Shown in pieces: positions 19,283 to 42,893 of a DNA stretch of 45,581 nt. The translations under genes were made by a program, and so were the position numbers. The notes beneath the pieces were generated by a model that saw nothing but the letters and a program-made list of their open reading frames with translations, had not been told where the DNA came from and ran no database searches. Source of the DNA: a virus; IMG/VR virus record IMGVR_UViG_3300009788_000153, positions 1 to 45,581 of that record; one strand, 5' to 3'. Each line of letters starts with the position of its first letter. Position 1 is the first letter of the stretch.

Positions 19283-21020
19283 TTTTGCCGTTAATACAGC
19301 GTTTACTGCCCAGGATAGAGTGACAAAAGCCTTTGGATCCATGGGCAGAGGCGCTGATAAATTCGGGAACAAATCAACCAAGGCATTCAGACAGGCCTCC
19401 AAGGGAGCCTCTCAATTTCAAAGCATCACAAAGGGGATCCTCACAGCCGGCGCTGTATCGCGTGTGACAGGTGGACTGGCCAGGGGCCTTGGCTCAGTGG
19501 CCAGAGAGTTTGTCAGCTTTGACCAGGCCATCACAGCCTCCTCAGCAAAATTCAAGGGCCTTGATATTACCACTCAGGCCGGCCAGAAAACCCTCCAGAA
19601 CCTCAAGAAAACCGCAAGAGATGTTGGAGCCGCCACTCAATTCAGCGCCGGACAGGCAGCTGAGGGCCTTGACTTCCTGGCCATGGCCGGCTTTAATGCA
19701 GAGCAGTCCATGATTACTTTGCCGGGAGTTGTGGACCTTGCCACAGTGGCCAATGTGGATCTTGCCAGGGCAACGGATATCGCGTCTGATTCCCTTGGAG
19801 CTTTTGGGCTTATGACTGAGGACACAACGCAACTCCAAAAGAATTTTACCAGAGTAAATGATGTCATGGCCCTGACCATGGCCCGGACCAATACCAATAT
19901 GGAGGATATGTTTGAGGCTGTAAAGAAAGGCGCTCCTGCTTTCACGGCAGCTGGCCAGCGCATGGAATCATTTAATGCACTGGTTGGGATCATGGCCAAT
20001 TCAGGAGTCAAGGGATCAGAGGCCGGCACTTCCTTGAGAAATGTCATGCTCAGGCTTGCCAAGGCAACCCCGGAGGCACAGAGAGTCCTGAAAAAATTAG
20101 GAGTTGAGGTCCAGGATGCAGACGGCAATTTCAGGGATGTTGTGGATATTATTACCGATGTGGAGAAAGGACTCAAAGGAATGGGAACGGCTCAGAAAAC
20201 AGCAGCCCTGACAACCATATTTGGTAACAGGGCTGTTACAGGATTCAATATCCTGCTCAAGGCAGGCACTGACAAGATCAGGGCATTCAGAGATGAGCTG
20301 GATAATTCAGCAGGATCATCAAAGAAAATGGCTGACATCATGAGACAGAGCCTTGGCAACAGATTAAAGGCCCTCCAGTCAGCAGCCATTGAGACAGGTT
20401 TTAAATTCTTTACAGCATTTGAGAAACGCGGAGGGAATGCCATTAATAAACTGACGGAGATCGTGCGTAACTTCGATATACAGCCCATAATCAATGCGGT
20501 GCAAACTACAATTAATGTCATGACAACCATGTTTAATATAATGAAACCCTTTGTGCCTCTCCTCCAGGGCATAGTGGCAGGCTTTCTTGCATATAGCGTT
20601 ATGCTCAAGGGCCTTGCGATTGTCCAGGCTGTTATTGGATTTATTAGATTCCTTTTGGTATTAAAAAGTATGGTTGGAACAATGGGCATCCTTAATGTTG
20701 TAATGGCCGCAAACCCCGTTGGAATTATAATTATAGCTATTGCATCTCTAATTGGGTTGATGGTAGTCCTTGAAAAGAAGTTTAAAATATTCTCAAGATC
20801 ATTTAAAGCAGTTAAAGGTTTCCTTGGATTTGGAGATGGAGAGTCTGCAGCTGCAGAGGAAAACAGGCAGGCCCCAAATACTGCTGAGGTTGAGGCAAGG
20901 CAAAAGATCAATTTCAATGGCCAGCTGAATATTGCCGGCGCGCCTCCGGGCTCAACAGTGGAGTCCGAGACAACCGGCGCTCCTCCTATCAAGGTTGAAT
21001 TGCTGGGAGCCAACCAATGA
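19275..21020 (+). CDS. Tail tape measure protein (TP901-type core)
   Basis: The 581-residue tail-length ruler, which also enters the host envelope during infection. The TP901 core is clear at about 110-330 (GAATQFSAGQAAEGLDFLAMAG, TNTNMEDMFEAVKKGAPAF, VKGSEAGTSLRNVMLRLAK). Several hydrophobic segments follow (about 410-510), as usual. ATG 19275 behind GGAGAG is preferred to the TTG at 19251, which has no ribosome-binding site and lies within the chaperone extension. The protein is short, suggesting a short contractile tail. Confidence 0.92.
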   Translation: MPDFAVNTAFTAQDRVTKAFGSMGRGADKFGNKSTKAFRQASKGASQFQSITKGILTAGAVSRVTGGLARGLGSVAREFVSFDQAITASSAKFKGLDITTQAGQKTLQNLKKTARDVGAATQFSAGQAAEGLDFLAMAGFNAEQSMITLPGVVDLATVANVDLARATDIASDSLGAFGLMTEDTTQLQKNFTRVNDVMALTMARTNTNMEDMFEAVKKGAPAFTAAGQRMESFNALVGIMANSGVKGSEAGTSLRNVMLRLAKATPEAQRVLKKLGVEVQDADGNFRDVVDIITDVEKGLKGMGTAQKTAALTTIFGNRAVTGFNILLKAGTDKIRAFRDELDNSAGSSKKMADIMRQSLGNRLKALQSAAIETGFKFFTAFEKRGGNAINKLTEIVRNFDIQPIINAVQTTINVMTTMFNIMKPFVPLLQGIVAGFLAYSVMLKGLAIVQAVIGFIRFLLVLKSMVGTMGILNVVMAANPVGIIIIAIASLIGLMVVLEKKFKIFSRSFKAVKGFLGFGDGESAAAEENRQAPNTAEVEARQKINFNGQLNIAGAPPGSTVESETTGAPPIKVELLGANQ

Positions 21021-22277
21021 GTTTCCTGGACAGGCTCAGGCCATCAATCCAGCTGACCTCCCCCGGAGGCTCAGAATTCACAGCCCTCTGGCAGGGCAAT
21101 ACCCGGAGCATAGAAAAGAAGCTTGGAATATTCCAATATCCCAAGGTCCGCGGGGCCATTGTCCAGGACCTGGATGTTGGCCCTGTCCGTTATCCCCTGA
21201 CAATATTTTTTCAGGGAGAGGACCATGATCTGGAGTCCAACAGGTTCCTGGATGCCTGCAAGGAAAATGGCCGCTGGCAGGTAGTGCATCCTGTCCATGG
21301 TCAGCTCGAGCTGCAACTGGTCTCCGCAACGGAGCAGGCGCTCCCTGTAGAATCCGGCAACCTCACACAGTTTGATACTGTCTGGCTGGAGCCTATCAGA
21401 GAGGCCCAGCTGGCATCCCCTGCTCAACTTAAAAGCTCAGTGGCCAACCAGATCAATGTGGCCAATGGGAGCTCTGCTGACCAACTCCTGGCCAATGTAT
21501 CTCAGGACACTGCCGGCCAGGTATCAGCTTTCCAGGGCGCTGTAAATAATGTCATTGCCGTTGTTGAGAGTACGCTTGAGAGCATATCAGATCTCAATGC
21601 TGAAATCACAGCGCGCATGACCTCCATCAAGAGGGATATCCTCTGTCCTTGCCGTTGTGCCAATGGATATCCTCTCTGTGGCCGGCCAGGTCCAGCAGCT
21701 TGTCCAGTTGCCGGCGCTGGCCATTGCCGATGTGGAGGCAAGGCTTGACGCTTATGGCCGTTATGCTGATGAGATATTTGGTCTGGATCCCGGAGGAGCG
21801 AACCTTGAGGGCAGGAATATTGTATCCGTGAAAGAGGTTGCTTTGATAGCCGGCATTGGAGCGGTTGCGGGGATCTCCTCCACAGGGACTCTCAACTCAA
21901 GGCTCCAGGCAGTGGAGGCAATAGAGATAAATGCAGCCCTGTTGAATGACACAATAGACAACCTGGATTCCTCTCAAGAAGCCTTTGAGAGCGTGCCAAT
22001 TGATGTGCAGTATTTCTCACAGAGCGAGAGTTTCCCCACTGTTGCAACTCTCACAGCACTGACTCAAGCCTTTCTCTTGCGGTCCATATTCAACCTGGCC
22101 ATTGAAAAACGGTTTATCCTGAGCCAGCAAAAATCCCCCATCAGGATAACCATTGAGGAGTATGGATCCCTTGGAGAGGGAGATGCCAATCTTGATTTCT
22201 TTATAACCACAAACCAGATCGAGGGCCTTGAGATAATCATGCTCCTTGCCGGCAGAGAGGTTGTGGTTTATGTCTGA
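21017..22277 (+). CDS. Mu gpN-like baseplate / DNA circularisation protein, apparent frameshift
   Basis: The N-terminal frame (21017-21748) begins with a clear DNA_circ_N domain (LWQGNTRSIEKKLGIFQYPK, VRYPLTIFFQGEDHDLESNRF). Near 21630 the frame turns into cysteine-rich nonsense (DILCPCRCANGYPLCGRPGP) while another frame continues with sensible sequence (VLAVVPMDILSVAGQVQQL) to 22277. Skipping one base around 21635-21641, for example in the GGG of AGAGGGAT, restores one chain of about 419 residues, the expected length. The downstream ATG 21657 has no ribosome-binding site. So this is a recent indel, a sequence error or a true +1 shift. The protein normally connects tail tube and baseplate hub. 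Confidence 0.82.
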
Positions 22278-22506
22278 GAAAAAATCCATAAAGCATATCA
22301 AAACTCCACTTGAAAAAGGTCCAGCTCATGTTGTCCAGAGCCTTGTTGGTATTGCCGGCTCAACAGAGGAAGAAGTTACAAGCATGATCGTTAAAAGCTG
22401 GATGATCCAGAATATGGATATGCTGGAAAAACTTGGCATTACTATAAAGGTTAATGGAGGCAATTTTATTATGGACAAGTCTGGGGAGGGATGGCCCTAT
22501 GAGTAA
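22270..22506 (+). CDS. Small helical protein, tail cassette
   Basis: A 78-residue protein starting at ATG 22270, eight bases after AGAGAGG and overlapping the gpN end. It has a helical C-terminal half (SMIVKSWMIQNMDMLEKLGI) and a short strand pair (ITIKVNGGNFIM). It is the first of four coupled genes inserted between gpN and gpP. No family recognised. Confidence 0.6.
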   Translation: MSEKKSIKHIKTPLEKGPAHVVQSLVGIAGSTEEEVTSMIVKSWMIQNMDMLEKLGITIKVNGGNFIMDKSGEGWPYE

Positions 22507-22837
22507 ATTCAGAGAGGCAACGGTCAAGGACAAAGAGGAGAATATCCTTGGGAAGTCCTGCTGGTTTTTCTGCCCTGGCTGTGAGGCTTATCACAGGATT
22601 TATGTTGAGGGGCCTGATGTCTCTCCTATCTGGGAATATAATGGCAAGCCGGATAATCCAACCATCTCTCCAAGCCTGCTTGTGAATAAAGATGATCCAC
22701 AGACCCGCTGCCATTCGTTTATCAAGGATGGCCAGATCCGATTCCTTAATGATTGCCATCATAAATTCAAAGGTAAGACTGTGGAGCTCCCTGACTGTCC
22801 GGGCATGGATGATCTTCACACTGAGGTCAAACGGTGA
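22499..22837 (+). CDS. DUF6527-like small zinc-binding protein
   Basis: A 112-residue protein with the signature of a phage family often mislabelled ammonia monooxygenase: WFFCPGCEAYHRIYV, then WEYNGKPDNPTISPSLLV, CHSFIKDGQIRFLNDCHHKF and KGKTVELPDCP. The conserved Cys and His residues probably bind zinc in a small beta fold. The function is unknown. ATG 22499 is chosen because GGGAGGG lies just upstream; the longer frame from 22454 overlaps gene 22270 fully. It is coupled to the flanking genes. Confidence 0.78.
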   Translation: MSKFREATVKDKEENILGKSCWFFCPGCEAYHRIYVEGPDVSPIWEYNGKPDNPTISPSLLVNKDDPQTRCHSFIKDGQIRFLNDCHHKFKGKTVELPDCPGMDDLHTEVKR

Positions 22838-23238
22838 TAGCACATATCAGCCAAAAAGATTCTCATGGATGCGCTGTGGCTTGTATGGCTATGGTCTCTG
22901 GTCATAGCTATGATTATGTCAGAGATTTTTATAGCGCCAAGGATTTTTCAAAGGCCGGCCTCACTCATTTTGATTATGTGGAATTTTTTGTTGAGCATGG
23001 GATATCCATCAATTGGAAATGGCCAGGATATCAAGCCAAAGGACTCAATAAAAAAAGAGATCCCTGGCCCTGTAAACTTTGGGCAGAGATAAACATTGTT
23101 AAAGTAATGACTCTGGCTCAGACATCTCATGCAATTGTTGTCTTAAAAGATGGCACTGTATTTGATCCTTTAGATCCACTTATCCCTACCCTTTCAGCCT
23201 ATAAAGAAATAACTCAGATTATAGGAATATATAAATGA
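22834..23238 (+). CDS. C39-like papain-fold cysteine peptidase
   Basis: A 134-residue protein with Gln7 and Cys13 in QKDSHGCAVACMAMVSG, His99 in SHAIVVLKDG and Asp111 in VFDP, the order of the C39 peptidase triad and oxyanion Gln. C39 domains process peptides, while related folds cleave peptidoglycan peptides. In this tail position it may process a tail protein or help the tail tip to penetrate the cell wall. The start GTG 22834 follows GAGGT and overlaps the previous stop. The catalytic residues are visible; the substrate is inferred. Confidence 0.75.
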   Translation: MIAHISQKDSHGCAVACMAMVSGHSYDYVRDFYSAKDFSKAGLTHFDYVEFFVEHGISINWKWPGYQAKGLNKKRDPWPCKLWAEINIVKVMTLAQTSHAIVVLKDGTVFDPLDPLIPTLSAYKEITQIIGIYK

Positions 23239-23717
23239 CTGAGAAATGTTGGATAGACACTCAGGCTATGATGTCAATTATGGCTAAAGCCAAGGAAAAA
23301 TATCCTCTCGAAACAGGAGGAGTTTTAATTGGTTATCACAAGGGGCAGGACGTAATTATCACTGATATAATTGGCCCTGGACATGGAGCAATTCATGAGC
23401 AATTTTATTTTGAAGGTGATACGGACTGGCAAAAAATAAAAATGGATGAGATATATGATGCCACTGATGGCCGGCTCAGATATCTTGGAGACTGGCACTC
23501 TCATCCTGATGGTCCAATAAATGCAAGCCCTCTGGATTTAGAGGCAATGAAAATTGTCAGAGACGCTCCGGAGGCTTTAACCCCTGAGCCTTTGATGCTT
23601 ATTATTGGAGGGGATTTTTCCAAAATATGGTTTGAAGTCTGGGAGCTTGCTGATAGCAACCTGAGATCATTGCCTATTAAAGAATTTCAATTTGATAGGG
23701 AGTGTTTAAATGCCTAA
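23235..23717 (+). CDS. JAMM/MPN (JAB) metalloprotease
   Basis: A 160-residue MPN domain with an intact JAMM site: Glu26 in PLETGGVLIG, His88 and His90, Ser98 and Asp101 in DWHSHPDGPINASPLD, a perfect HxHx7Sx2D. JAMM enzymes cut isopeptide or peptide bonds; tail-encoded ones occur as the N-terminal half of lambda gpK. It is coupled to the C39-like gene by four bases and to gpP by eight. It could mature a tail component, act on peptidoglycan with the C39-like enzyme, or remove ubiquitin-like tags. Only the active site is certain. Confidence 0.85.
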   Translation: MTEKCWIDTQAMMSIMAKAKEKYPLETGGVLIGYHKGQDVIITDIIGPGHGAIHEQFYFEGDTDWQKIKMDEIYDATDGRLRYLGDWHSHPDGPINASPLDLEAMKIVRDAPEALTPEPLMLIIGGDFSKIWFEVWELADSNLRSLPIKEFQFDRECLNA

Positions 23718-24963
23718 CCCTATTCCAGGCAAGACATATATTGTGCAGGATGAGAATTCCCTCAGCCAGGTAGCTCAGCGCGCATATGGAGACGCTACTC
23801 TCTGGCCAAAGATATTTAAAGCCAACCAGTCTCAGCTCCGGTCCGGAGATCCTGATGTCATATTCCCTGGAGAGCAGATATTTATCCCTCTGGACTCCGG
23901 CCTTGAGCAGCTTAAAACACAGGTCTCAGAGACCACGTTGTCCAACAAGGCCCCTGATGAGCTGACCCTCATCCTTGACGGCCTTGAGGTCCCTGTGGAC
24001 TCCTGCCGGATCCTCCGGACAATGGACACGGTAGCAGATGGCTGGACAGCATCACTGGCCTGGGCTCCGGGACTCAATCTGGAGTTGGACAAGAGGCTCC
24101 TGCCATATAGTTATCTCCCAGCCTCCGTGTATATTGGAGGAGAGCTCCTTGTCAATGGCCTACTTTATAATATTGAATCTGAGATCTCCGGCTCAGGGAG
24201 GAGAAAAAATCTGGAGGGATTTAGTTTCACGGCTGATCTGATGGATTCAACCCTCAAGCCTCCATATGAAAAAAATAACTTCACGCTCAAGCAGAGGGCT
24301 GAGGAGCTTGTGGCACAGATCGGCATTGCTGTGATATTTGATATAGATCCTGGAGATCCCTTTGACCGTATCACGGCCAATGAAGGTGATACCATATTCA
24401 ATCATCTGAATAAACTATCCAGACAGCGGAGCGGACTCCTATCATCAACCCCACAAGGAGATCTCCTTGTCCATCAGTCAGCATCAGGAGCGCCTGTGGC
24501 CACGCTTGAGGAGGGCCGGCAACTTGTCAGGAACTTCAAGGCAGGTTTTAATGGGCGCGCACGTTTTAACGCATATAGAGCTCTTGGCAAATCGCCGGCC
24601 GGCAACAAGGTTGGCATTGCCAATGATGATAATGTCCCGCGCTCGAGGTTCCTGACATTCACGGTTAATGAGACTACCAAGGGGGATATCCAAAAGGCAG
24701 CGGACTGGAGGAGATCCAAGCAGCTTGCAGACGCTCTCACAATCCCCCTGCCGGTCTCTGATTGGTTTGACCCCGCAGGCAACCTCTGGAGAGAAAATAC
24801 CCTTGTCACGGTGATCTCAGAGGCAATCCATGTGCCAGACGGCTTTGACTTCCTTATCCGCTCAGTGGAGTATGTGCTTGACGGCACGGCCAGGACGGCC
24901 ACACTCAATATTGTGCCTCCTCAAGTCTATACAGGAGAACCCCTGGAGGAGCCCTGGAAATGA
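23710..24963 (+). CDS. Baseplate hub protein (Mu gpP-like) with N-terminal LysM domain
   Basis: A 417-residue protein. Residues about 7-58 form a LysM peptidoglycan-binding domain (YIVQDENSLSQVAQRAYG ending IFPGEQIFIPL). The rest is a gp27/gpD-type hub (LTLILDGLEVPVDSCRILRT, FSFTADLMDSTLKPPYEKNN, PVSDWFDPAGNLWRENTLVT). The hub sits at the tube end and holds the spike. The LysM fusion could anchor the tip to the wall. Order gpN-gpP-gp45 follows Mu except for the inserted cassette. Confidence 0.88.
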   Translation: MPNPIPGKTYIVQDENSLSQVAQRAYGDATLWPKIFKANQSQLRSGDPDVIFPGEQIFIPLDSGLEQLKTQVSETTLSNKAPDELTLILDGLEVPVDSCRILRTMDTVADGWTASLAWAPGLNLELDKRLLPYSYLPASVYIGGELLVNGLLYNIESEISGSGRRKNLEGFSFTADLMDSTLKPPYEKNNFTLKQRAEELVAQIGIAVIFDIDPGDPFDRITANEGDTIFNHLNKLSRQRSGLLSSTPQGDLLVHQSASGAPVATLEEGRQLVRNFKAGFNGRARFNAYRALGKSPAGNKVGIANDDNVPRSRFLTFTVNETTKGDIQKAADWRRSKQLADALTIPLPVSDWFDPAGNLWRENTLVTVISEAIHVPDGFDFLIRSVEYVLDGTARTATLNIVPPQVYTGEPLEEPWK

Positions 24964-25457
24964 GCGTCCGAATTGGCAAGGTGACAGGGAGAGCGATTGG
25001 CAAGAACAGGGACGGATCTGATGATGTCCTGCTCCTGCAGGTGGAGATATCGGATCCGGATGATGTCCAGACGGTCCAGCTCATGAACCCCTCCGGAGAG
25101 AACAGCAACCCTCCTGATGATAGCCAGGTATTGATCATAGATATAGGCTCTGCTTTCAAGGTTGCTGTGGCCGCGGATGATGGCATTGCTCCCTTTGGAG
25201 ACCCCGGAGACAAGCAGATATACTCTGTTGATGGAGGCATAATAAAAGCCTTTATTAATCTGCTGACATCAGGTAACATAGAATTGAATGGAAATGCAGA
25301 TAACGCGGTGAGGTTTAATGCTTTGGATACTCAAATGCAGACATTAATCATAGCAATAAATGCTTTATTTGCTACTAAAGCAGACGGCTCAGGGACTGCA
25401 GGATCCCTGAGCCTTGATCTTTCCTCTGCAAAGGTTGATGAGGTATTGTTACCATGA
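24960..25457 (+). CDS. Baseplate spike (Mu gp45-like)
   Basis: A 165-residue membrane-piercing spike protein. The OB-like N-terminal region contains LLLQVEISDPDDVQTVQLMN, then the long beta region that ends in the short triple-helix-like repeats (LNGNADNAVRF, SGNIELNG). Mu gp45 is 197 residues. It overlaps the hub gene by four bases. A His-x-His iron motif at the tip is not visible. Confidence 0.85.
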   Translation: MSVRIGKVTGRAIGKNRDGSDDVLLLQVEISDPDDVQTVQLMNPSGENSNPPDDSQVLIIDIGSAFKVAVAADDGIAPFGDPGDKQIYSVDGGIIKAFINLLTSGNIELNGNADNAVRFNALDTQMQTLIIAINALFATKADGSGTAGSLSLDLSSAKVDEVLLP

Positions 25458-25885
25458 ATAAATATATCAATTATTTCATTTATATTATTAAACATAAATA
25501 TTATGTTTTTTTAGAATGTTTTAAGATGGGATTAATATTACATGCTTTTACTCATGATCTTTCAAAGTTTATGCCCTCAGAGTTTATTCCTTATGCCATT
25601 AAATTCTATGGTAATAAACCTATAACAGAAGAAATTAAAATTAACTTTGAAATAGCCTGGTTATTACATCAACACAGGAATAAACATCATTGGGATTTCT
25701 GGATTAATTCTCAAGGCATAGCAATTACTATGCCTAAGAAATATATAATGCATATGATTGCTGATTGGAGAGGTATGTCAAGAGTTTTTGGAGACACTGC
25801 CAAAGATTTTTATGAAAAAAATAAAATCAAAATGAACCTCCATACAAAAACAATCGAATTAATATATGAGGAATTGATGCCATGA
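25454..25885 (+). CDS. DUF5662-like HD-type protein
   Basis: A 143-residue protein with His34-Asp35 in AFTHDLSKFMPSEF, HHW at 78-80, and DW at 104-105, the layout of phage proteins assigned to DUF5662, an HD-like fold. Its activity is unknown. Base composition is markedly more AT-rich than the tail genes on either side, so it looks like an acquired gene sitting in the baseplate operon. It overlaps both neighbours by four bases, so it is translated with them. Confidence 0.75.
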   Translation: MNKYINYFIYIIKHKYYVFLECFKMGLILHAFTHDLSKFMPSEFIPYAIKFYGNKPITEEIKINFEIAWLLHQHRNKHHWDFWINSQGIAITMPKKYIMHMIADWRGMSRVFGDTAKDFYEKNKIKMNLHTKTIELIYEELMP

Positions 25886-34215: not shown

Positions 34216-35289
34216 TTAAAATAATACCTCCTGTTGAAAGCGCTTGATGCCAAGGTCCAGAGAATCTCTGTTGATATCAATGCCAATATATCTCCGGCCA
34301 TGTTTCTTGCAGACCTCTCCAGTTGTCTGGGATCCTCCAAAGGGATCCACAATAATGTCTCCAGCTCGAGAGCCGGCTAGGATGCAAGGCTCAATGAGTT
34401 CTGCAGGGAACACGGCAAAGTGTGCCTCCTTGTATGGCTTTATGGGGATGGTCCAGACAGAGCGTTTGTTTTTGCCACTCTCAGAAAAGTCACACTTTTC
34501 TCCTCCCATATGAGGGCGCTGGCCCATTTCTTTTGCGTTAATTTTTTTGCTCCAGTTTGTCCTATCTCTTTTCCCATAATCTTTGGCAGGTTCGTTTATT
34601 GCGGCTGCATTATAATAATATATCTCTGATTTAGCCATTAAAAATAAATATTCATGAGCAGTAGTTGGTCTATCTTTGACACTCTCAGGCATTGGATTTG
34701 GTTTATGCCAAATATTTACACGGTCCTGAGAATATCTGACAATCCGCTCCTCCATAATATGTCCACAACCACAGGGGCAATATATTTCAACTTCTTCTAT
34801 TATATCTTTTCGGAGATACCAACCTGATGCTTGCAAAGCAAAGGCCACACGCCAAGGGATGCCTACTAGATCTTTAGATTTTAGTCCCTTTATTGGCATA
34901 CGGTTAGGCTGAGTTGTAGGTCCTTTCCCATCTATCCATCTTGCACCTTGTTGGCCTCCCCCCGGAGCCTTACCTACTTTTCCACTATTTGTTGCATAAC
35001 TATCTCCCAGATTGAGCCAGAGGGTTCCATCAGGCTTGAGGATCTTGTTGATATGCCGAAATACCTCTGACAGGCGCTCTGTGTAGGCCTCTGGGGAGTC
35101 CTCAAGGCCAACCTGGCCGTCAACCCCATAATCTCTGAGGCCCCAATATGGAGGAGATGTTACACAGCACTGGATGGACTCCAGCTCGAGCTGAGGCAGG
35201 ATCTCAAGACAGTCTCCATGGAGGAGGACAATATCAGGCTCCTCATAATATATTTTATCTTTCAAACTATCAGGGATCATATCACTCAT
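34216..35289 (-). CDS. DNA methyltransferase (N4-cytosine or N6-adenine type)
   Basis: A 357-residue amino-methyltransferase. Motif IV TSPPYW (44-49) precedes the SAM-binding FGG motif in VDPFGGSQTTGE (about 326-337), an order typical of the beta class; SPPY favours N4-cytosine but also occurs in N6-adenine enzymes. A Cys cluster (CPCGCG) suggests zinc. ATG 35289 behind GAGGAG overlaps the Dcm stop by eight bases. No cognate endonuclease is seen, so it likely protects phage DNA. GGATCC, the target of the N4-cytosine enzyme M.BamHI, is very frequent here. Confidence 0.88.
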   Translation of the reverse strand: MSDMIPDSLKDKIYYEEPDIVLLHGDCLEILPQLELESIQCCVTSPPYWGLRDYGVDGQVGLEDSPEAYTERLSEVFRHINKILKPDGTLWLNLGDSYATNSGKVGKAPGGGQQGARWIDGKGPTTQPNRMPIKGLKSKDLVGIPWRVAFALQASGWYLRKDIIEEVEIYCPCGCGHIMEERIVRYSQDRVNIWHKPNPMPESVKDRPTTAHEYLFLMAKSEIYYYNAAAINEPAKDYGKRDRTNWSKKINAKEMGQRPHMGGEKCDFSESGKNKRSVWTIPIKPYKEAHFAVFPAELIEPCILAGSRAGDIIVDPFGGSQTTGEVCKKHGRRYIGIDINRDSLDLGIKRFQQEVLF

Positions 35290-36523
35290 TATTAAAAAGC
35301 TCCTCATAGAGTTTTATTCTCCGGCCAATCCAATGGACAACCGGAGTGGCCATGCTATTGCCCAGCGCCTTATACCTCACATTGTCAGGATGCTTTGCAA
35401 ATCTTTTTGCAGTTGATTCTGAGAAACCAAATGATGTCATGAGATACATTATGATTTCATGATTATATTTTTTAATTGTCCTGCCTATGCCTGGAATGAG
35501 AGTATAATTATCAGGAAAGCCCTGGAGCCTCTCACACTCAACAGGAGTAAATCTCCGGACAATTGAATTGTCTCTAATATATGGTTGCTGTTTCATTCCC
35601 GGCTCTGCAGCAAGAGCGCCTGAGATCCTTCCTTTTTCTCCGATGATCCGGACCTCATCTCTGCTATTTTGAGCAAAAGCAATTAAATCTGTTGCATCCT
35701 TGAAGTCTCTGGACTTCAAGGCGCTGGCCTTATTGTCAGGCTCATAATCTCCAAAGCCTTTCTTGCGATAAGAAATACACATATCTACCATTTGACCACT
35801 GGGGGATTTAAATGGAGAATATGCCTCAGCTCCGATTGTTGGAGCTGTTTCTGCACAAAAAATCATCCGGTCTGAGCCGGACTGTTTCCCTTTGCAGCTA
35901 TCCTCTCCAGAACCTCCTGTAATTGTGGGGGCAACTTCTTGCCTCTCTTCTTTGCTCTTCTTAAAATTCCCGCGCAGGCTTTCGGGCTCAAATAATACCG
36001 CGAGAGATGGTCTCCAGTCTCCAAAATATCCGACAAGAAACACTCTCCTCCTCCGTTGGGGTACTCCGAAGTATTGAGCGTTAAGCACTCTCCATGAAAG
36101 GCCATACCCGAGTTCAGCCAGCCCTCTGACAAAGGTTGAAAAATCCCGTCCTTCGTTAGAGGACAGCACGCCGGTGACGTTTTCCCAAATGACCCAGCGG
36201 GGATTATACTTGGCAATGATTCCCAGATAGACAAGGCAAAGGTTGCCACGCGGATCATCCATTCCTTTTCTGAGGCCAGCAATGCTGAATGACTGGCAGG
36301 GGGATCCCCCGCAAATAAGTCCAAGTTGTCCATGGTCAGGCCACTCCTTATATTTGTTTGCATCCCCATAATTAGGGACGGCAGGATAATGATGCTTTAG
36401 AACTTTGCATGGAAATTTCTCTATCTCTGAGAAAAATGCCGGCTCCCAGCCAAGGCTATCCCAGGCAACAGTGGGAGCCTCTATCCCTGAGAATACGGTT
36501 GCGTATGTAAAAGGATCACTCAT
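35282..36523 (-). CDS. DNA (cytosine-5) methyltransferase
   Basis: A 413-residue C5 methyltransferase. It shows motif I (TVFSGIEAPTVAW, 9-21), motif IV with catalytic Cys76 (GGSPCQSFS), ENV (114-116) and QRRRR (156-160), then a variable target-recognition region and GNSMATPVVHW near the end. ATG 36523 is preferred to 36565 because AGGAG is nine bases upstream. It overlaps the second methyltransferase gene, so both are made together. No restriction gene is present, which points to anti-restriction. Confidence 0.95.
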   Translation of the reverse strand: MSDPFTYATVFSGIEAPTVAWDSLGWEPAFFSEIEKFPCKVLKHHYPAVPNYGDANKYKEWPDHGQLGLICGGSPCQSFSIAGLRKGMDDPRGNLCLVYLGIIAKYNPRWVIWENVTGVLSSNEGRDFSTFVRGLAELGYGLSWRVLNAQYFGVPQRRRRVFLVGYFGDWRPSLAVLFEPESLRGNFKKSKEERQEVAPTITGGSGEDSCKGKQSGSDRMIFCAETAPTIGAEAYSPFKSPSGQMVDMCISYRKKGFGDYEPDNKASALKSRDFKDATDLIAFAQNSRDEVRIIGEKGRISGALAAEPGMKQQPYIRDNSIVRRFTPVECERLQGFPDNYTLIPGIGRTIKKYNHEIIMYLMTSFGFSESTAKRFAKHPDNVRYKALGNSMATPVVHWIGRRIKLYEELFNNE

Positions 36524-36782
36524 TATCTGAGTCTCCTGCAGTTGCTGTATTTGTTTTATTGCCACTTATGCTAGTATAGAGTTGTTTGCGAGTCATTTTA
36601 TTAGTATTGCAAAAAGACATCTTGCAACTCTTGCATTTAATAGCACGTTTATTCCCCAATTTAACTAGGAAAGTACCACTCTGATCAGAAACCCGGAGGA
36701 GCTTCTTTGCATTATACATCTGCTCAGCTCCGCAATTACTGCAAGTGACCTTGATCTGTTTATTTGCCTTGAGGTTTTTCAT
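36516..36782 (-). CDS. Zinc-ribbon protein
   Basis: An 88-residue basic protein with two CxxC pairs, CSNCGAEQMY (14-17) and CKSCKMSFC (50-53), spaced as in a zinc ribbon, and a polar C-terminal tail. It overlaps Dcm by eight bases at its end and the next upstream gene by four at its start. A nucleic-acid-binding role is likely. No closer family. Confidence 0.65.
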   Translation of the reverse strand: MKNLKANKQIKVTCSNCGAEQMYNAKKLLRVSDQSGTFLVKLGNKRAIKCKSCKMSFCNTNKMTRKQLYTSISGNKTNTATAGDSDNE

Positions 36783-37585
36783 TTTGATATTTCCTTTTTA
36801 TATATTCCCGGATTGGACCAGACAAAAACAGGATCTCTCCATTCACGGCCATATGTGCGGCGCTCAGGCCCTTTATAGAGCTGAGCGAATGGCCAAAAGC
36901 CAAGCTCAAGGACTCTGCTTGCTCTGGCCTCAGCTTCTTTGGGAGTCTCATCTCCATATCCAAAGAGTACATAACAGCGTTTTTTCCTGATAGGTATATA
37001 TTTTAAAAGCCTTGAGGCTCTCTCAAGTGCTGGGAGATCTCCTTTTGTATCACAAGCAAACCAGAGCTCTTTAATTTTTATTTTATTGATCAGATCAATA
37101 TGCCATGGCTTGAGGAGCCTTGCATCCAATCCCCCAGCAAAATTAATTCCTTTTCTCTGTTTAGAAAGCATCTCAAAAACATTCTCAATATGAGTCCTTG
37201 AGCAAGCTAATAAATTATTATCCTGAATAATATGTCCTGGCTTTATAGGATATTCCCTTATTGTGGATCCCTCTCTCTTTGGTACAAAACAAAAGCCACA
37301 GCGCCTGATGCATCCTCTGGAGGTTATTGTGACTCCCTCTTTTATGAATCTCCCTGGCACAAAGTCCGCTCCCGGATCATCAAAGGCCGGTCCTCCAATT
37401 TGGACATCTGAATAATGACCGCTCCATGATTTAAAAAGCTTTTGGCCTAATGGGATATCCTCAGTAAAAGTGATAGAGATTTTGACAGGGAGGTCCTCCT
37501 CTGCCCTGAATAGAGGCACATGGCCAATATACACAAGAGGATCCTCCGGAGTCCATTTGGTCTTTCTGGGAAAGACTCTGATCAT
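36779..37585 (-). CDS. Radical-SAM-like protein
   Basis: A 268-residue protein with the radical SAM cluster motif CIRRCGFC (Cys92, 96, 99) and the following PKREG segment. A later region (GGLDARLLKPWHIDLINKIK) fits the SAM-binding barrel. It probably uses an iron-sulfur cluster and SAM to start radical chemistry on an unknown substrate. It sits among DNA methyltransferases and nucleotide enzymes, so DNA or nucleotide modification is plausible. Coupled to both neighbours. Confidence 0.75.
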   Translation of the reverse strand: MIRVFPRKTKWTPEDPLVYIGHVPLFRAEEDLPVKISITFTEDIPLGQKLFKSWSGHYSDVQIGGPAFDDPGADFVPGRFIKEGVTITSRGCIRRCGFCFVPKREGSTIREYPIKPGHIIQDNNLLACSRTHIENVFEMLSKQRKGINFAGGLDARLLKPWHIDLINKIKIKELWFACDTKGDLPALERASRLLKYIPIRKKRCYVLFGYGDETPKEAEARASRVLELGFWPFAQLYKGPERRTYGREWRDPVFVWSNPGIYKKEISK

Positions 37586-37872
37586 GGTCTCATCTCACAA
37601 GCGGAAATATTTAAATCAGGATCCCTCATATAGCCTGTGATGGCTCCCTGGTCCACTTTAAGGATGATAAACCGCTTGCCATCAACACAGAGCTCAGCGG
37701 ACTGATCATCGGCGCGTATGACCTCTATCCGGATCTCAGGGGCCTTAATCTTTTGAGGTTTGCCGTCCGGCCAGAAAGAGATCACTATCATCAGGATCCC
37801 TATCATGAAAAGCAATGCATTTTTTTTATCTTCATATGACCAGGATGATTTTCTAAACTCATCAACTTTCAT
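37582..37872 (-). CDS. Small membrane protein
   Basis: A 96-residue protein with one membrane segment (ALLFMIGILMIVISFW, 19-34) after a polar start, then a beta-rich outer or inner domain. The start MKVDEF behind AAAGGA resembles the start MKVDNY of the next gene upstream. It is coupled to the radical-SAM gene. Unknown function. Confidence 0.6.
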   Translation of the reverse strand: MKVDEFRKSSWSYEDKKNALLFMIGILMIVISFWPDGKPQKIKAPEIRIEVIRADDQSAELCVDGKRFIILKVDQGAITGYMRDPDLNISACEMRP

Positions 37873-37875
37873 GTA

Positions 37876-38019
37876 TCAGTCCTTTCCCTCAAGATCCGCT
37901 TTCATTGCAATGAAGGTCAGGCAGGACCCGCATTTATCCTCCAATGTATTGAGGCGCTCCGTGCATTGTATGCAGATGTTTTCCGAGATCCAACTATCAT
38001 CATAGTTGTCAACTTTCAT
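37876..38019 (-). CDS. 47-residue zinc-finger-like protein
   Basis: A short ORF from ATG 38019 with CIQC and CGSC, a four-cysteine zinc pattern. AAAGGA lies nine bases upstream. The frame before this ATG has no better start. It overlaps the upstream gene's end and lies close before the next. Very small, but with the zinc pattern and the operon position it is probably real. Confidence 0.55.
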   Translation of the reverse strand: MKVDNYDDSWISENICIQCTERLNTLEDKCGSCLTFIAMKADLEGKD

Positions 38020-38335
38020 GGCTTTTATCCTTTCTTGACGGCATAGGAGCGCCTGCATGTGCAGCAGCCAAGATCTCAAAGAGTCTATCAGAGCCATCCT
38101 CTTTCACTACCTGAGCAGCAAGAAAACTCATGAGTTGGCTCAAAGTCTTTAAGCCATTTTCTCTCATGATCTTTCTTGCACATCTATACATAGGAGGAGA
38201 AAGGATAATCTTGGGCTCTGTCTGATGATGGCTGGCATTCTTTATGAGCTCCTTGGCATCATGGATATCCTGAATGATATCTTGAGGGCCTGAATCTTCC
38301 CAGCCGGACGCTGTTGATCTGTTTGTCTTTCTCAT
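38009..38335 (-). CDS. Helical hypothetical protein
   Basis: A 108-residue protein: a polar N-terminus, then helices with LSPPMYRCARKIMRENGLKT and LSQLMSFLAAQVV. The ATG 38335 overlaps the previous stop (ATGA). It ends within the next small gene. No motif recognised. Confidence 0.55.
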   Translation of the reverse strand: MRKTNRSTASGWEDSGPQDIIQDIHDAKELIKNASHHQTEPKIILSPPMYRCARKIMRENGLKTLSQLMSFLAAQVVKEDGSDRLFEILAAAHAGAPMPSRKDKSHES

Positions 38336-38676
38336 CTCTGTCTCTTGCCTCCCTTGCGTTTGAATTTCCTCATGATTCTCCGTTTGCGGATATTCTCCAT
38401 GACAAGCTCGAATAGCAATGAAGCTTTCTCCTGAGTGAAGCCACATTGGACAACCTTTTCTATTACAATAGGAGCAGCTTTCACTGCCATAAGATGAGGG
38501 ATGTGTTTTAGATTATATACAGCCATGGCCGCCGGGAAAGTCTCCATTGCTGCCTTGGCCCACATGGTTTTTGCCTGTAGATTTAATCCAGCTTGGACTC
38601 CCTTGTCCACTGCAACTTTTAAAGAAGCATTGATCTTTTTGAGATCAATTGGTCCAATTGTTATCTTTTTCTCCAT
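38332..38676 (-). CDS. Basic helical hypothetical protein
   Basis: A 114-residue protein with a hydrophobic helical middle (MWAKAAMETFPAAMAVY) and a very basic C-terminus (RKRRIMRKFKRKGGKRQR), which may contact nucleic acid or membrane phospholipids. ATG 38676 behind GGGAGAGG is chosen over 38697. It overlaps the next gene by four bases. Confidence 0.6.
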   Translation of the reverse strand: MEKKITIGPIDLKKINASLKVAVDKGVQAGLNLQAKTMWAKAAMETFPAAMAVYNLKHIPHLMAVKAAPIVIEKVVQCGFTQEKASLLFELVMENIRKRRIMRKFKRKGGKRQR

Positions 38677-38686
38677 AGCCTCTCCC

Positions 38687-38833
38687 CTATTTTGCAACTG
38701 CCATCACAATACAGGTGATAACCGATGCCACAAGCCAAGCTATCAGAGCGGCCACTGGCACAAGTATCTCAAAATGAAGGCCGGCAAAGACGGCCATCCA
38801 TAAACAACCTACACAAAAGATCCTTTCTATCAT
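38687..38833 (-). CDS. 48-residue two-span membrane protein
   Basis: A short ORF with two hydrophobic stretches separated by HFEILVP. Its ATG overlaps the upstream stop (ATGA). It is too short for many gene finders. Possible roles include membrane association of early proteins or an inhibitor of a host factor. Unknown. Confidence 0.55.
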   Translation of the reverse strand: MIERIFCVGCLWMAVFAGLHFEILVPVAALIAWLVASVITCIVMAVAK

Positions 38834-39141
38834 GACCCTTTCTCCTTGTCCAGTTGAAATAAAAAGTTATAGACATCCGCAACAATAAATGGATCCTGAT
38901 GCTTGGACTCCTGCAAGCTCTCCATCATCCATTTATGGCCTCTGTTGAGGAGCTCCAGCATCTCATCAGCTTTTTTGTCCAGCTGAGGATGATCTGTCTC
39001 CAGCCGTATATCAAAGGCAGTCTCATTTGGATCATGAGGATCCATGGCTCCAAAGCCAACAGACTTTTTAGTGAGTATTATCTCTTCCATATGGAGCTTG
39101 GCAAATCGCCGGCCATTCTTTAAAAAGATAATCCTTGTCAT
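38830..39141 (-). CDS. Hypothetical protein, first gene of modification operon
   Basis: A 103-residue protein with a strand-rich start (TRIIFLKNGRRFAKLHMEEI) and two C-terminal helices. It begins 25 bases after the -10 of the operator-bearing promoter, with AAAGGAGAGG before ATG 39141. Being first in the operon, it is probably the earliest expressed. No family recognised. Confidence 0.6.
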   Translation of the reverse strand: MTRIIFLKNGRRFAKLHMEEIILTKKSVGFGAMDPHDPNETAFDIRLETDHPQLDKKADEMLELLNRGHKWMMESLQESKHQDPFIVADVYNFLFQLDKEKGS

Positions 39142-39165
39142 ATGATCCTCTCCTTTCAGGTTTCT

Positions 39166-39195
39166 ATTATATTCTATTCATAATATAATAGTCAA
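39166..39195 (-). promoter_or_regulatory. Promoter with embedded operator, modification operon
   Basis: On the minus strand: TTGACT (39195-39190), 18 bases, TATAAT (39171-39166). The dyad ATTCTATT-CAT-AATATAAT on the plus strand (39171-39189) has one mismatch between arms and the same centre as at 2974 and 44736. It lies inside the end of no gene and only three bases from the HD gene's stop. Confidence 0.8.
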
Positions 39196-39197
39196 GG

Positions 39198-39725
39198 CTA
39201 TTCTGTGAGGGCGTGAAAGCGCCTTATGAATTCCCCTCTTGCAATCTGGGGAGTCCAGAATGAGAGAGTTATCTCAGCTGGATCCGGGAGCTCAACCCCT
39301 GGCCATGGAGTATCATTGGCCATGGCAACTTTTTTCTCAAGGGCCAGCATCCTTTTATCCATGATATCAACCATTACCTCATTGTATGGAGGGATCTCAA
39401 ACCTCTCACAGATGAGATGGAGGAGGCTTTCCTCAAGGGCCATGAAGCTGGGATGATGCTGTCTGATCGTGCCATTGAGGTCCGACACATAGGCCTCAGC
39501 GGCATCATGCATCAGGAAGCCAAGAGTGTCCTCTCTGGAATAGCCATCATTTTCAGCCTGGATGGATCCCAGGACACAATGCTCAGCCACGCTATAAAAT
39601 TCATGCGTATGGCCATTGAAACGGCATTGCATTGAGAGACTGTGTGCAATGTCCAGCATCTGGATCTGATGCATTTTGGGATCCTGTAGATCAATGAGCT
39701 GGCCTGAGTAAGTTGCAATTATCAT
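39198..39725 (-). CDS. HD-domain nucleotidase-like protein
   Basis: A 175-residue HD protein of the YfbR-type phosphohydrolase group. Metal ligands are His33?, the EHC in EFYSVAEHCVLGS, and HDAAEAYVSDL (His-Asp near 73-74), typical of 5'-deoxynucleotidases. It likely hydrolyses dNMPs and so shapes the nucleotide pool. ATG 39725 overlaps the previous stop by four bases. It ends the first minus-strand operon. Confidence 0.78.
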   Translation of the reverse strand: MIIATYSGQLIDLQDPKMHQIQMLDIAHSLSMQCRFNGHTHEFYSVAEHCVLGSIQAENDGYSREDTLGFLMHDAAEAYVSDLNGTIRQHHPSFMALEESLLHLICERFEIPPYNEVMVDIMDKRMLALEKKVAMANDTPWPGVELPDPAEITLSFWTPQIARGEFIRRFHALTE

Positions 39726-39961
39726 TTCTCTCTCCTTTGAACCTTGATTATTGCCTCCTTGACCCTCTGAGGCATCAACAACTTTTCAGAATCGCTCAGG
39801 CCCTCTGAGTAGATCTTGAGGGACCTTTTCTCCTTGTCCACATCAACGGGATAGCGGCGCTTGAGGATGGCCTGCCTCAGCGCTCTGAATTGGACATCAG
39901 AAAACGTAACAGGCATATAGCAGATCTGGCCATCAATCGTAACAGTCAACTTTACTCGCAT
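39722..39961 (-). CDS. Small hypothetical protein
   Basis: A 79-residue basic protein: two strands, then helices (SDVQFRALRQAILKRRYPV). A GGGAGG element precedes ATG 39961. No motif recognised. It sits between the MazG and HD genes and is coupled to the latter. Confidence 0.55.
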   Translation of the reverse strand: MRVKLTVTIDGQICYMPVTFSDVQFRALRQAILKRRYPVDVDKEKRSLKIYSEGLSDSEKLLMPQRVKEAIIKVQRREK

Positions 39962-39970
39962 TGGACCTCC

Positions 39971-40273
39971 CTAATATTTTTTACCATGTTTGTGCTCCCT
40001 GGTTTCGTTGTATTTCATTTTCTTGAGGATAGCGGCTTCAATATCTAAACCCCGCTCATGAGCTGTGTCAAGCACTCTGATAATGACATCTGCAAACTCC
40101 TCAGATACACAGCCTTTTTCTCCCTCTGGGATGCCGTTTCTATCGCCCTCAAGTGCCTCTGAGAGTTCAGTATGCATCAGAGCGATCATCTCTCGAAAAT
40201 TACGCTCCTCATCCCAGAAACCTTTGTCTTTGGCAGTCTGATGGATCATGCTGGCCAGCTCTTTGATCATCAT
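39971..40273 (-). CDS. MazG-type NTP pyrophosphohydrolase
   Basis: A 100-residue all-helical pyrophosphatase with EExx pairs: HTELSEALEG (Glu36, Glu39) and EEFADVIIRVLDTA (Glu59, Asp62), the magnesium site of MazG/dUTPase-like proteins. Phage MazG proteins lower ppGpp or clean unusual dNTPs; here the target is unknown. The start overlaps the DUF5131 stop. The size equals single-domain phage MazG. Confidence 0.82.
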   Translation of the reverse strand: MMIKELASMIHQTAKDKGFWDEERNFREMIALMHTELSEALEGDRNGIPEGEKGCVSEEFADVIIRVLDTAHERGLDIEAAILKKMKYNETREHKHGKKY

Positions 40274-40992
40274 TTATTCAACCCCCATGCAAGCTCTTTA
40301 TGCTCTCTGCCGTCAAGCAGATGAGTTTTCTTGTTGACTTTCTTGAGAAAGAAAGGCACTCCCACAGCCTCACATTGCTCCTTGAGGGACTTGAACCATG
40401 CCGGATCCGCTGGGAGCGCTCCTGGGCCTGTCTGACAGCCGGCAATGACCTGTTTTATATAGTCATGCCATGGCACAACTCTGCCGGGATGCGCCTCAGT
40501 GGAGAAATCAGAGTTGATGCTGTCCAGATCCAAGGGAGCCAGCAAGGGCTCCAGGCTTATAAAGGTAGGTTGTCCAGTCAAGTAAAGATGTGAGGCTCTC
40601 TGGAGATCCTCTGGGCCTGTGACAGTTGCGCCAAGCCAGCAATTAGACGGCCATATGAAATCAGCATACCTGCCCGGATTCTTTGTCAACCATAGAAAGG
40701 TGTGTTGACTGGCCAGATGGCACTCCTCTATCACAGCATTTATATCATCCCTGGTCCACCATTCTCCCATCATGTCTGTCATGGATCCCACAAAGACCGC
40801 TTGAGGCTTTGAGGTCTCCCCAGGCTGTCCAAGGCGCTTGTCATGGAAATCAGGCGCAAACCCTTTTGGGAATGACTTTTTGTATCTGGGGTTTTCCGCT
40901 ATCCTTCGGGCATAGCAATATGTGCAACCATGCAAACAGCCGGTCATTGGATTCCAGGTGCAGTCAGTCCATTCAATGTTTGATTTATTCAT
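40270..40992 (-). CDS. DUF5131 (phage Gp37/Gp68-type) iron-sulfur protein
   Basis: A 240-residue protein with the family start IEWTDCTWNPMTGC and the cluster motif GCLHGCTYCYARR (Cys19, 23, 26), a CxxxCxxC arrangement like that of radical SAM enzymes. Another conserved piece is SQHTFLWLTKNP. The substrate is unknown, though members are frequent in phages. It overlaps the MazG gene by four bases and shares one base with the next. Confidence 0.88.
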   Translation of the reverse strand: MNKSNIEWTDCTWNPMTGCLHGCTYCYARRIAENPRYKKSFPKGFAPDFHDKRLGQPGETSKPQAVFVGSMTDMMGEWWTRDDINAVIEECHLASQHTFLWLTKNPGRYADFIWPSNCWLGATVTGPEDLQRASHLYLTGQPTFISLEPLLAPLDLDSINSDFSTEAHPGRVVPWHDYIKQVIAGCQTGPGALPADPAWFKSLKEQCEAVGVPFFLKKVNKKTHLLDGREHKELAWGLNK

Positions 40993-41201
40993 TAAAGATT
41001 CTCCACAACTATTCTATAAATTGTTTTACACGTTTCCTCCTTTGCATTATAGACATGAGCTTTTAATTCAAGCTCAGCTTTAAGCTCAGGATCTCCACCT
41101 GACATGCCAATTGCTTGCCAAGCAAAATCTCCTTTTAATTCATTCGCTGATTTTGCTGTATCATCAATAAGCTTTAGTATCGTTGCTTTTTTAACAGACA
41201 T
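40992..41201 (-). CDS. Small helical hypothetical protein
   Basis: A 69-residue helical protein (MSVKKATILKLIDDTAKSANELKG at its start). It shares single-base overlaps with both neighbours. No motif recognised. Confidence 0.55.
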   Translation of the reverse strand: MSVKKATILKLIDDTAKSANELKGDFAWQAIGMSGGDPELKAELELKAHVYNAKEETCKTIYRIVVENL

Positions 41202-41506
41202 TATATCCCTCCATCTTCAAGATGTTTAACAGCATCCTCTCCGGACATCACAGTCTCCAGATCATCTTTCTTGACCCATGCATCTCCTGGCCATGGCTTG
41301 ACCTGGATCCTCAACATGCTGACCCCAAGGCGCTTTGCGCTAATCTGAGCAGCTATCTGAGCTATCTCTGGATCATCATAGAGCAATGGACCTTTAACAG
41401 TTCCTAGCCAGCATTTATCCACTATGTCAAAGAGGCCCAGCCAGACCTTTTCAATGACATCGGGATCATGAGGATCAAACTGACTGACTGGTATTTTATC
41501 CATCAT
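41201..41506 (-). CDS. Hypothetical protein
   Basis: A 101-residue acidic protein with a helical N-terminal half and a central strand (GVSMLRIQVKPWPGD). It overlaps the membrane protein gene by four bases. No known family. Confidence 0.55.
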   Translation of the reverse strand: MMDKIPVSQFDPHDPDVIEKVWLGLFDIVDKCWLGTVKGPLLYDDPEIAQIAAQISAKRLGVSMLRIQVKPWPGDAWVKKDDLETVMSGEDAVKHLEDGGI

Positions 41507-41712
41507 TCTCCCTTGATGAGTTTAATGATCCATTTGAAAGTGAACCAGACAGTGATGATCACATTCAGGGGCCAGATCATAGCCAAGACTAGCCTTTCCC
41601 GGATCGATGGATGATGCCAGCGCTGAGCGTGCAGCTCACAGAAACTGGCAATGGCTCCTGATAGCCAGATAATGAAGATCAGCATATACAAAACAACCGT
41701 TATCTCTTTCAT
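41503..41712 (-). CDS. Small two-span membrane protein
   Basis: A 69-residue protein with two membrane segments (VLYMLIFIIWLSGAIASF and LAMIWPLNVIITVWFTF) joined by a basic loop, ending in a Lys-rich tail. Overlaps both neighbours. It could act as an inhibitor or membrane anchor; unknown. Confidence 0.6.
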   Translation of the reverse strand: MKEITVVLYMLIFIIWLSGAIASFCELHAQRWHHPSIRERLVLAMIWPLNVIITVWFTFKWIIKLIKGE

Positions 41713-42893
41713 GACATCCTCCTAACTCCATCTAATTTCATGGGCATGACAACTGCCTCATAAGTTTCATTGCCAAGATCCACTTTGCTCTCATTGTCCA
41801 GAGTCTCTGTGAGATGCATTGGGCTCAGCTGATCTGTCATGCCCAGGCTGACAATTGAGCTCTTGCACTTGAGGAGGGCCTCATGGAGATAGTGTATGTT
41901 CATGCCAAATTCAAGCTCAGGCCCATCAAAGCTCTCAACTTTGAAATCCGTCTCAGCTGAGTAATCTCCTTGCAGAGTTGCAGACAAGGAAAAGCCGAGA
42001 TGGCAAGCAAGGATCTTTGTGCCATAAGATTTCCGCTCAATTGGGATCGCTTTGAGTTTTTCAATGGCCCTGATCATGTCAGCCTTTCTGAATACTACAA
42101 ATGACTCACATTTCTTTGGTATAACCTGATCGTATTTTGGATAAGTACCATCTACCAGTCTGGAGATGAGCATTGTAGTGCCACATTTCAGCAGAGCATG
42201 GGAATCCGTGAAAGCAATCTCTGGCTCCTTATCGCAAATCCTGACTATTTGCATGAGCGAAGTCAGCCAGCGCCTTGGCGCAATGAAATTGCGCCTCTCA
42301 GGCAATGAGGTTGATGTTTCCATCTTCTTTTTAAGCAGAGCCATCCTGTGGCCATCAGTGCCAACCAGAATCAGGCCATCATCAGTAAAAATGAAAGGCA
42401 CGCTGTTGAGAGTATATCTGGTATCGCTATGCCCAGAGGCATAAAATACCCTGTTTATCATCTCTCTGAGTTCCTTGCCACCTAAACTGAATGAGGCCAT
42501 CAATTTGCCAATTTTGGGCTCCTTGAAAAAGCCGGCATCATCAGGAGTGCTGTGGAGCAGGTAGCTGCAGCCATCAGAGAACACTTTGAGAGAGACTTTC
42601 GTGTCCTCCTCTATTGTTGATAGAGTGACAGGCCCTCTGGCCTCCCCAATGATCCTGAGCAGCGTCTGGCAGTCAACAATGACCTCTCCTCTCCGGCAGT
42701 CAGTTGCTTGCACAAGAGCTTTGAAATAGTTATCTCCATCATATGCCTCAATTGACATGAGACAGCCTGCATGATCCCCAGACACGGACAATTTCACAAG
42801 TTGGCACATTGGGAGAGATGGTTTCTTTTCCCTTGCCTGAAAAGCCTTGTGCAACGTCTTATGAAAAACATCTCTTTCCACTCTTGCCATCAT
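41709..42893 (-). CDS. Sliding clamp homologue (DnaN-like)
   Basis: A 394-residue beta-clamp protein. Clamp signatures: TRYTLNSVPFIF, LILVGTDGHRMALL, LISRLVDGTYPKYDQVIP and the C-terminal YEAVVMPMKL. It would form a dimeric ring on DNA and give processivity to a polymerase. No polymerase or clamp loader gene is found, so it must work with host or another phage factor. AGGAGG precedes the start. The N-terminus is diverged from bacterial clamps. Confidence 0.85.
   Translation of the reverse strand: MMARVERDVFHKTLHKAFQAREKKPSLPMCQLVKLSVSGDHAGCLMSIEAYDGDNYFKALVQATDCRRGEVIVDCQTLLRIIGEARGPVTLSTIEEDTKVSLKVFSDGCSYLLHSTPDDAGFFKEPKIGKLMASFSLGGKELREMINRVFYASGHSDTRYTLNSVPFIFTDDGLILVGTDGHRMALLKKKMETSTSLPERRNFIAPRRWLTSLMQIVRICDKEPEIAFTDSHALLKCGTTMLISRLVDGTYPKYDQVIPKKCESFVVFRKADMIRAIEKLKAIPIERKSYGTKILACHLGFSLSATLQGDYSAETDFKVESFDGPELEFGMNIHYLHEALLKCKSSIVSLGMTDQLSPMHLTETLDNESKVDLGNETYEAVVMPMKLDGVRRMS

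Follow-up and report, generated by a model that had tools for sequence, protein, structure and literature searches.

The 45,581-base virus sequence IMGVR_UViG_3300009788_000153, which was analysed over its whole length and will be named hereafter the window, carries four genes that separate a gpN-like baseplate gene from a gpP-like one, and one of the four encodes a JAMM protease. The question raised by this locus is whether such an insert belongs to the tail machinery or whether its JAMM protein acts on something else, e.g. on tags that the host attaches to proteins. The insert and its two neighbours are arranged along the window in the following way.

21017..22277, + strand: gpN-like baseplate protein, 5′ of the insert (DNA_circ_N; PHROG baseplate hub), in frames 21017-21748 and 21657-22277
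22270..22506, + strand: orphan protein of 78 aa; its gene opens the insert and overlaps the gpN stop
22499..22837, + strand: DUF6527 protein (PF20137, PHROG 3362), its ATG at 22499 overlapping the preceding stop
22834..23238, + strand: C39-like, papain-type candidate with Cys13 and His99; Pfam C39 score below the cut-off
23235..23717, + strand: JAMM isopeptidase, well supported as being of the bacterial E2-E1-JAMM type, with intact E26/H88/H90/S98/D101
23710..24963, + strand: gpP-like baseplate hub, 3′ of the insert (GpP_4th, PHROG 177)

Stop and start codons overlap among the four forward ORFs of the insert (22270-23717), and the gpP gene starts at 23710. The arrangement given in a preliminary description of this DNA, that is, four coupled genes separating gpN from gpP, is borne out by the ORF coordinates, the overlapping ends and the family matches of gpN and gpP. 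The gpN assignment itself held in part: a gpN-like gene is present 5′ of the insert, but it is read in two overlapping frames whereas most of its relatives have a single ORF, and this may reflect a sequencing error, a genuine break or frameshifting. The joint GC content of the insert is 0.417, and 12 of 442 similar-sized windows were equally low or lower. There was no E1 or E2 gene among the window ORFs, and HMM searches of the window gave neither a CD-NTase nor Cap2.

The first protein of the insert (78 aa) had no Pfam, PHROG, NCBIfam or PADLOC match, and none in phages at E 0.1. The second had been described as DUF6527-like, and it is indeed a member of this family, as it passed the Pfam gathering score for PF20137 (51.9 bits; cut-off 23.6) and matched PHROG 3362 (E 7.8e-33). 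Relatives are present in 293 phage records, the window protein resembles these phage forms, and its Cys/His pattern suggests zinc binding. The third protein, which had been taken for a C39-type cysteine peptidase, matched PHROG 4049 (2.3e-5). Its Cys13 and His99 are invariant in an alignment of four sequences, but its Pfam C39 score of 13.9 bits lies under the gathering cut-off of 22 (one relative gets 18.9), and no C39 structure matched it; the structure model of this protein failed (pLDDT 44.7). Searching viral contigs with the C39 alignment returned 237 candidates and one relative, which had been found previously, and searching genomes returned no relative among 181 candidates. Two relatives (L002:7992-8399 and L024:5863-6432) each lie directly 3′ of a large gene, which is a PHROG portal gene in L024 and is unmatched in L002, and in L024 the relative is followed by a head morphogenesis gene.

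The fourth protein is a JAMM protease with an intact site, as was recognized from the start. Its Prok-JAB score is 51.6 bits (cut-off 25), residues E26, H88, H90, S98 and D101 complete the E, HxHP, SxxD pattern, and the predicted structure contains a confident JAMM domain (mean pLDDT 95.9). The PADLOC models for the JAB of defence operons matched it at 1.2e-27, and PHROG tail families at 2.1e-4 at best. Matches to the NCBIfam models Cap3 and 6A-MBL stayed under the equivalog cut-offs (for Cap3, 1.7e-17 and 64 of 200 bits). The fold search gave the Cap3-CD-NTase complex 9ild among its best matches; the phage JAB proteins of BFVD and PHROGs have the JAMM fold in common with the window protein, and identity was 21% at most among the fold-search matches reaching E 0.001.

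A quick tree with 123 rows placed the window protein within a clade of 104 rows (SH-aLRT 96) that holds the E2-E1 type, grouped with L026 and L027 (90) and separate from four CBASS-type rows (L058, L059, L060 and L063). The tree label 'bactE1E2' is a default and also covers L065, L094, L107 and L127, none of which yielded a complete E1. A careful tree, built from 86 of the 123 rows after dropping nine long or odd ones (including HK97 gpK and L025) and 28 near-duplicates, brought the window together with L026, L027 and L029 at 93/94. It is well supported that the window JAMM is an enzyme of the bacterial E2-E1-JAMM type. That is, it shares its domain, catalytic residues and tree position with the proteins of bacterial E2-E1-JAMM operons (L019-L022, L067-L146), but it comes without E1, E2 or the peptide of those operons (see below) and lies inside a phage tail module.

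Relatives of the tail genes surrounding the insert were informative as to its status. Relatives of gpP were found at 16 viral loci, with up to 65% identity in gpP, and at all 13 loci showing gpN this gene lies directly 5′ of gpP, no more than about 230 bases away. Two pairs of loci, L009/L010 and L015/L016, are near copies, and gpN is split in the first pair; in L005 and L007 gpP is preceded by other genes and the contig starts before gpN, and L018 starts within gpP. No relative of the DUF6527, C39-like or JAMM proteins was present around gpP in L003-L017, and Prok-JAB matched in none of 14 whole records of tail relatives, some of which are fragments. Thus, the order gpN-insert-gpP, which the preliminary description had suggested looking for in other myoviruses, was not recovered in the tail relatives. 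Because these relatives join gpN directly to gpP, without the insert genes, the insert does not belong to the core tail. When 297 genomes from a single phylum were searched with gpP, the matches were weak, the best two having 28-29% identity.

We then considered where else the JAMM gene occurs. Relatives are present in 102 plasmid records, and at 1e-5 there was none across 50,697 phage records (one weak match at 0.5). In viral contigs, a single-sequence search found nothing and an alignment search found 30 loci. An E1 or E2 gene was detected by HMM near the JAMM gene in 77 of 80 bacterial loci, which were the best 80 of 189 relatives from the genome scan, versus 7 of the 30 viral loci; that is, the JAMM gene is orphaned in 23 of the 30. 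The three bacterial exceptions, followed up with tblastn, comprised an E1 truncated by the contig end (L107), a fragment (L094) and a locus with none (L127), E1 being undetected at L127 and also at the plasmid locus L065. Fisher's test on 23/7 versus 2/78 gives 1.8e-15, a value that serves as a guide only because the loci are related and were sampled differently. No ThiF match was found in 24 whole viral records, 14 of which bear JAMM. Among the plasmid loci opened, a ThiF or E2 gene adjoins JAMM in L019-L022 and L062-L064, CBASS operons make up L058 and L060, an annotated nucleotidyltransferase lies upstream of JAMM in L059 and L063, short ThiF and Mov34 genes are present in L061, and L065 is unannotated.

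The catalytic residues are intact in all 24 phage JAMM copies, the window included, and head, packaging or neck genes flank the JAMM gene in each of the seven viral loci tested against PHROG:

L026: neck, head protease and major head protein
L027: head closure
L029 and L046: terminase and portal
L030: head-tail adaptor
L041: terminase
L044: terminase and head morphogenesis

In the named phage record L025 a gene annotated as JAB adjoins portal and MuF-like genes, and the orphan JAMM of L053 apparently lies, by eye, among replication genes. Orphan JAMM copies are thus found at differing sites in unrelated phages, mostly in head, packaging or tail modules. A single origin for all of them was not rejected (AU p 0.134), and we therefore do not claim several captures. 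Twelve phage orphan JAMMs (L032-L041, L043 and L044) form a tight clade, the examined copies of which lie after a terminase gene and/or before a MuF-like gene.

At the start of the matching bacterial operons, 5′ of the E2-E1 gene, there is a short proline-rich ORF, a new observation of the present analysis. Under a strict rule the peptide is found in 69 of the 77 operons that have enough sequence upstream, versus 3 of 5446 background ORFs, and under a looser rule in 72 of 77; both rules were written after the peptide was first seen, and the background was computed with the strict rule only. The 77 operons come from 85 loci, after leaving out three without an E1 call and five at contig edges. 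The peptide has a median length of 55 residues and 30% proline, its C-terminus is exactly Gly in 61 of 72 cases, and an RPVG end, with at most two residues beyond, is seen in 49 of 69. Examples 5′ of the E2-E1 gene are L075:4035-4241 and L021:2989-3165, the latter being annotated as a hypothetical CDS. Under the strict rule the peptide occurred in none of four CBASS-type loci and none of four other E1 loci. From these sequence features we infer that the peptide is a candidate for the modifier, one lacking a ubiquitin fold. Upstream of the bacterial operons lie WYL genes (11 loci) and M78 peptidases (clusters of five and four loci), calls that were checked with Pfam on four representatives. Regulators of these types (CapW, CapH+CapP) are reported from the neighbourhood of CBASS, BREX and Bub operons (PMC13373217); the same source notes that a protective effect of Bub operons against phage had not been shown.

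The DUF6527 gene has bacterial connections of its own. An E1 gene is adjacent to it in 12 of 19 bacterial loci (11 by E1 HMM, and L162 by a JAB-type match and by eye), no E1 was seen in the other seven, and two of these adjoin muramidase or glucosaminidase genes. In L147-L153 and L159-L163 the DUF6527 genes are directly beside E1 genes. Four of the E1s beside DUF6527 were tested with Pfam, giving three DUF6791-ThiF and one ThiF, and two upstream genes were Multi_ubiq. Iyer and others described polyUbl operons with a metal-binding protein (PMC1779556), which may be DUF6527. However, DUF6527 was absent from all 24 JAMM- or gpP-related viral records, and none of the 293 phage records with DUF6527 relatives had a window-type JAMM at 1e-5, so that joint action of the four genes is without support. 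Likewise, no C39 or DUF6527 match was found in the JAMM loci examined. Both the C39 membership of the third protein and a concerted action of the four genes are unproven.

Starting from what is observed directly, i.e. the JAMM family, the intact site, the orphan state, the insertion in a tail module and the relatives elsewhere in phages, we propose, at about even chances, that the insert JAMM is a captured deconjugase that would reverse host ubiquitin-like tagging late in infection as a counter-defence. Because its bacterial kin belong to ubiquitin-like tagging operons, the enzyme may strip host tags rather than build the tail. The insert would be an accessory (moron) cassette, expressed alongside the late genes, the JAMM gene of which would have been captured from bacterial operons made up of proline-rich peptide, E2-E1 fusion and JAMM. 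Were the host to tag virion or host proteins via isopeptide bonds during infection, the phage JAMM could cut the bonds between modifier and target, which would blunt the host tagging response to the benefit of the phage. The host operon would then be a defence system, the proline-rich peptide would be the modifier on which the phage JAMM acts, and the DUF6527 and C39-like neighbours might help. A broader picture is more doubtful, namely that conjugation with a disordered, proline-rich modifier ending in Gly would be widespread in bacteria, and that unrelated phages would have captured orphan JAMMs undoing it during virion assembly. Removal of host ubiquitin-like tags had been listed earlier as one alternative; such a role would agree with where the JAMM falls in its family, with its orphan status and with its context.

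Viral deubiquitinases are known from eukaryotic viruses. If the proposed role is true, they would extend to phages, and the operons would point to conjugation in bacteria by means of a modifier that lacks a fold. A literature search covering mostly papers outside subscription returned no recognized description of an orphan phage JAMM of the E2-E1 type, and the name DUF6527 was absent from its results within the same limited scope. Known systems do offer parallels. Cap3 cleaves cGAS isopeptide links (PMC10449767) and has been presented as an antagonist of Cap2 (PMC11153139), attachment of cGAS to T4 fibritin has been reported (PMC10097602), and peptidases of jumbo phages are treated in PMC7824862. 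According to PMC11364771, the Bil (bacterial ISG15-like) system tags the central tail fibre with a ubiquitin-like protein, and such tagging of a tail protein is a possible reason for a phage to carry a deconjugase. Bil and the window share a JAMM, acting as deconjugase in Bil and putatively so in the window, but Bil is a host operon whereas the window JAMM is phage-borne.

Other roles have to be weighed against that of a captured deconjugase. The presence of many orphan JAMM copies in morphogenesis modules, together with the overlap of the insert genes with gpN and gpP, would also suit virion maturation, in which the JAMM protein, possibly with the C39-like protein, would process a phage structural protein. 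However, tail relatives with as much as 65% gpP identity do without JAMM, and no constant substrate neighbour exists because the JAMM location varies between phages, so we hold this role to be unlikely. The preliminary description had favoured a split, rearranged gpK, in which JAMM and papain-like proteins would act on the cell wall or on gpI in tail tip assembly. Lambda-type gpK consists of JAB and NlpC/P60 domains (PMC1779556), and the window also has a JAB domain in a tail module, with two peptidase types adjacent to each other beside tail genes and with a JAB that weakly resembles that of HK97 gpK (hhalign probability 66). Nevertheless, the window JAMM is a separate gene on another JAB branch, no NlpC/P60 match was found, and the tail relatives lack the insert genes and, in 14 of 14 records, Prok-JAB matches. 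Furthermore, HK97 gpK had no PADLOC JAB match at 1e-5, as against 1.2e-27 for the window protein, and is far from it in the quick tree. The split gpK was rejected on these grounds and appears highly improbable.

A phage Cap3 deconjugating CD-NTases, i.e. a strict anti-CBASS function, would account for the NCBIfam Cap3 match and for the 9ild structure match; the JAMM fold and the deconjugase family are common to both proteins. Yet the Cap3 score is less than the equivalog cut-off, the tree separates the window from the four CBASS-type rows, and neither CD-NTase nor Cap2 was found in the window; a strict Cap3 identity is thus disfavoured and this function very unlikely. Finally, the low GC content and the patchy distribution would agree with a passenger cassette that has no role in infecting the present host, or with a gene directed at host tagging beyond the lytic cycle, but the frames are open and overlapping and the catalytic site is intact, which makes a passenger distinctly unlikely. 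The captured deconjugase is the reading we prefer.

The insert is likely not the only accessory one in the window. A DUF5662 gene (25454-25885; GC 0.27) lies between gp45 and gp46, where the gaps of the relatives vary, and is likely another such insert. Farther downstream, the minus strand of the window encodes two DNA methylases, a DUF5131 protein and a DNA polymerase beta clamp (34216-42893).
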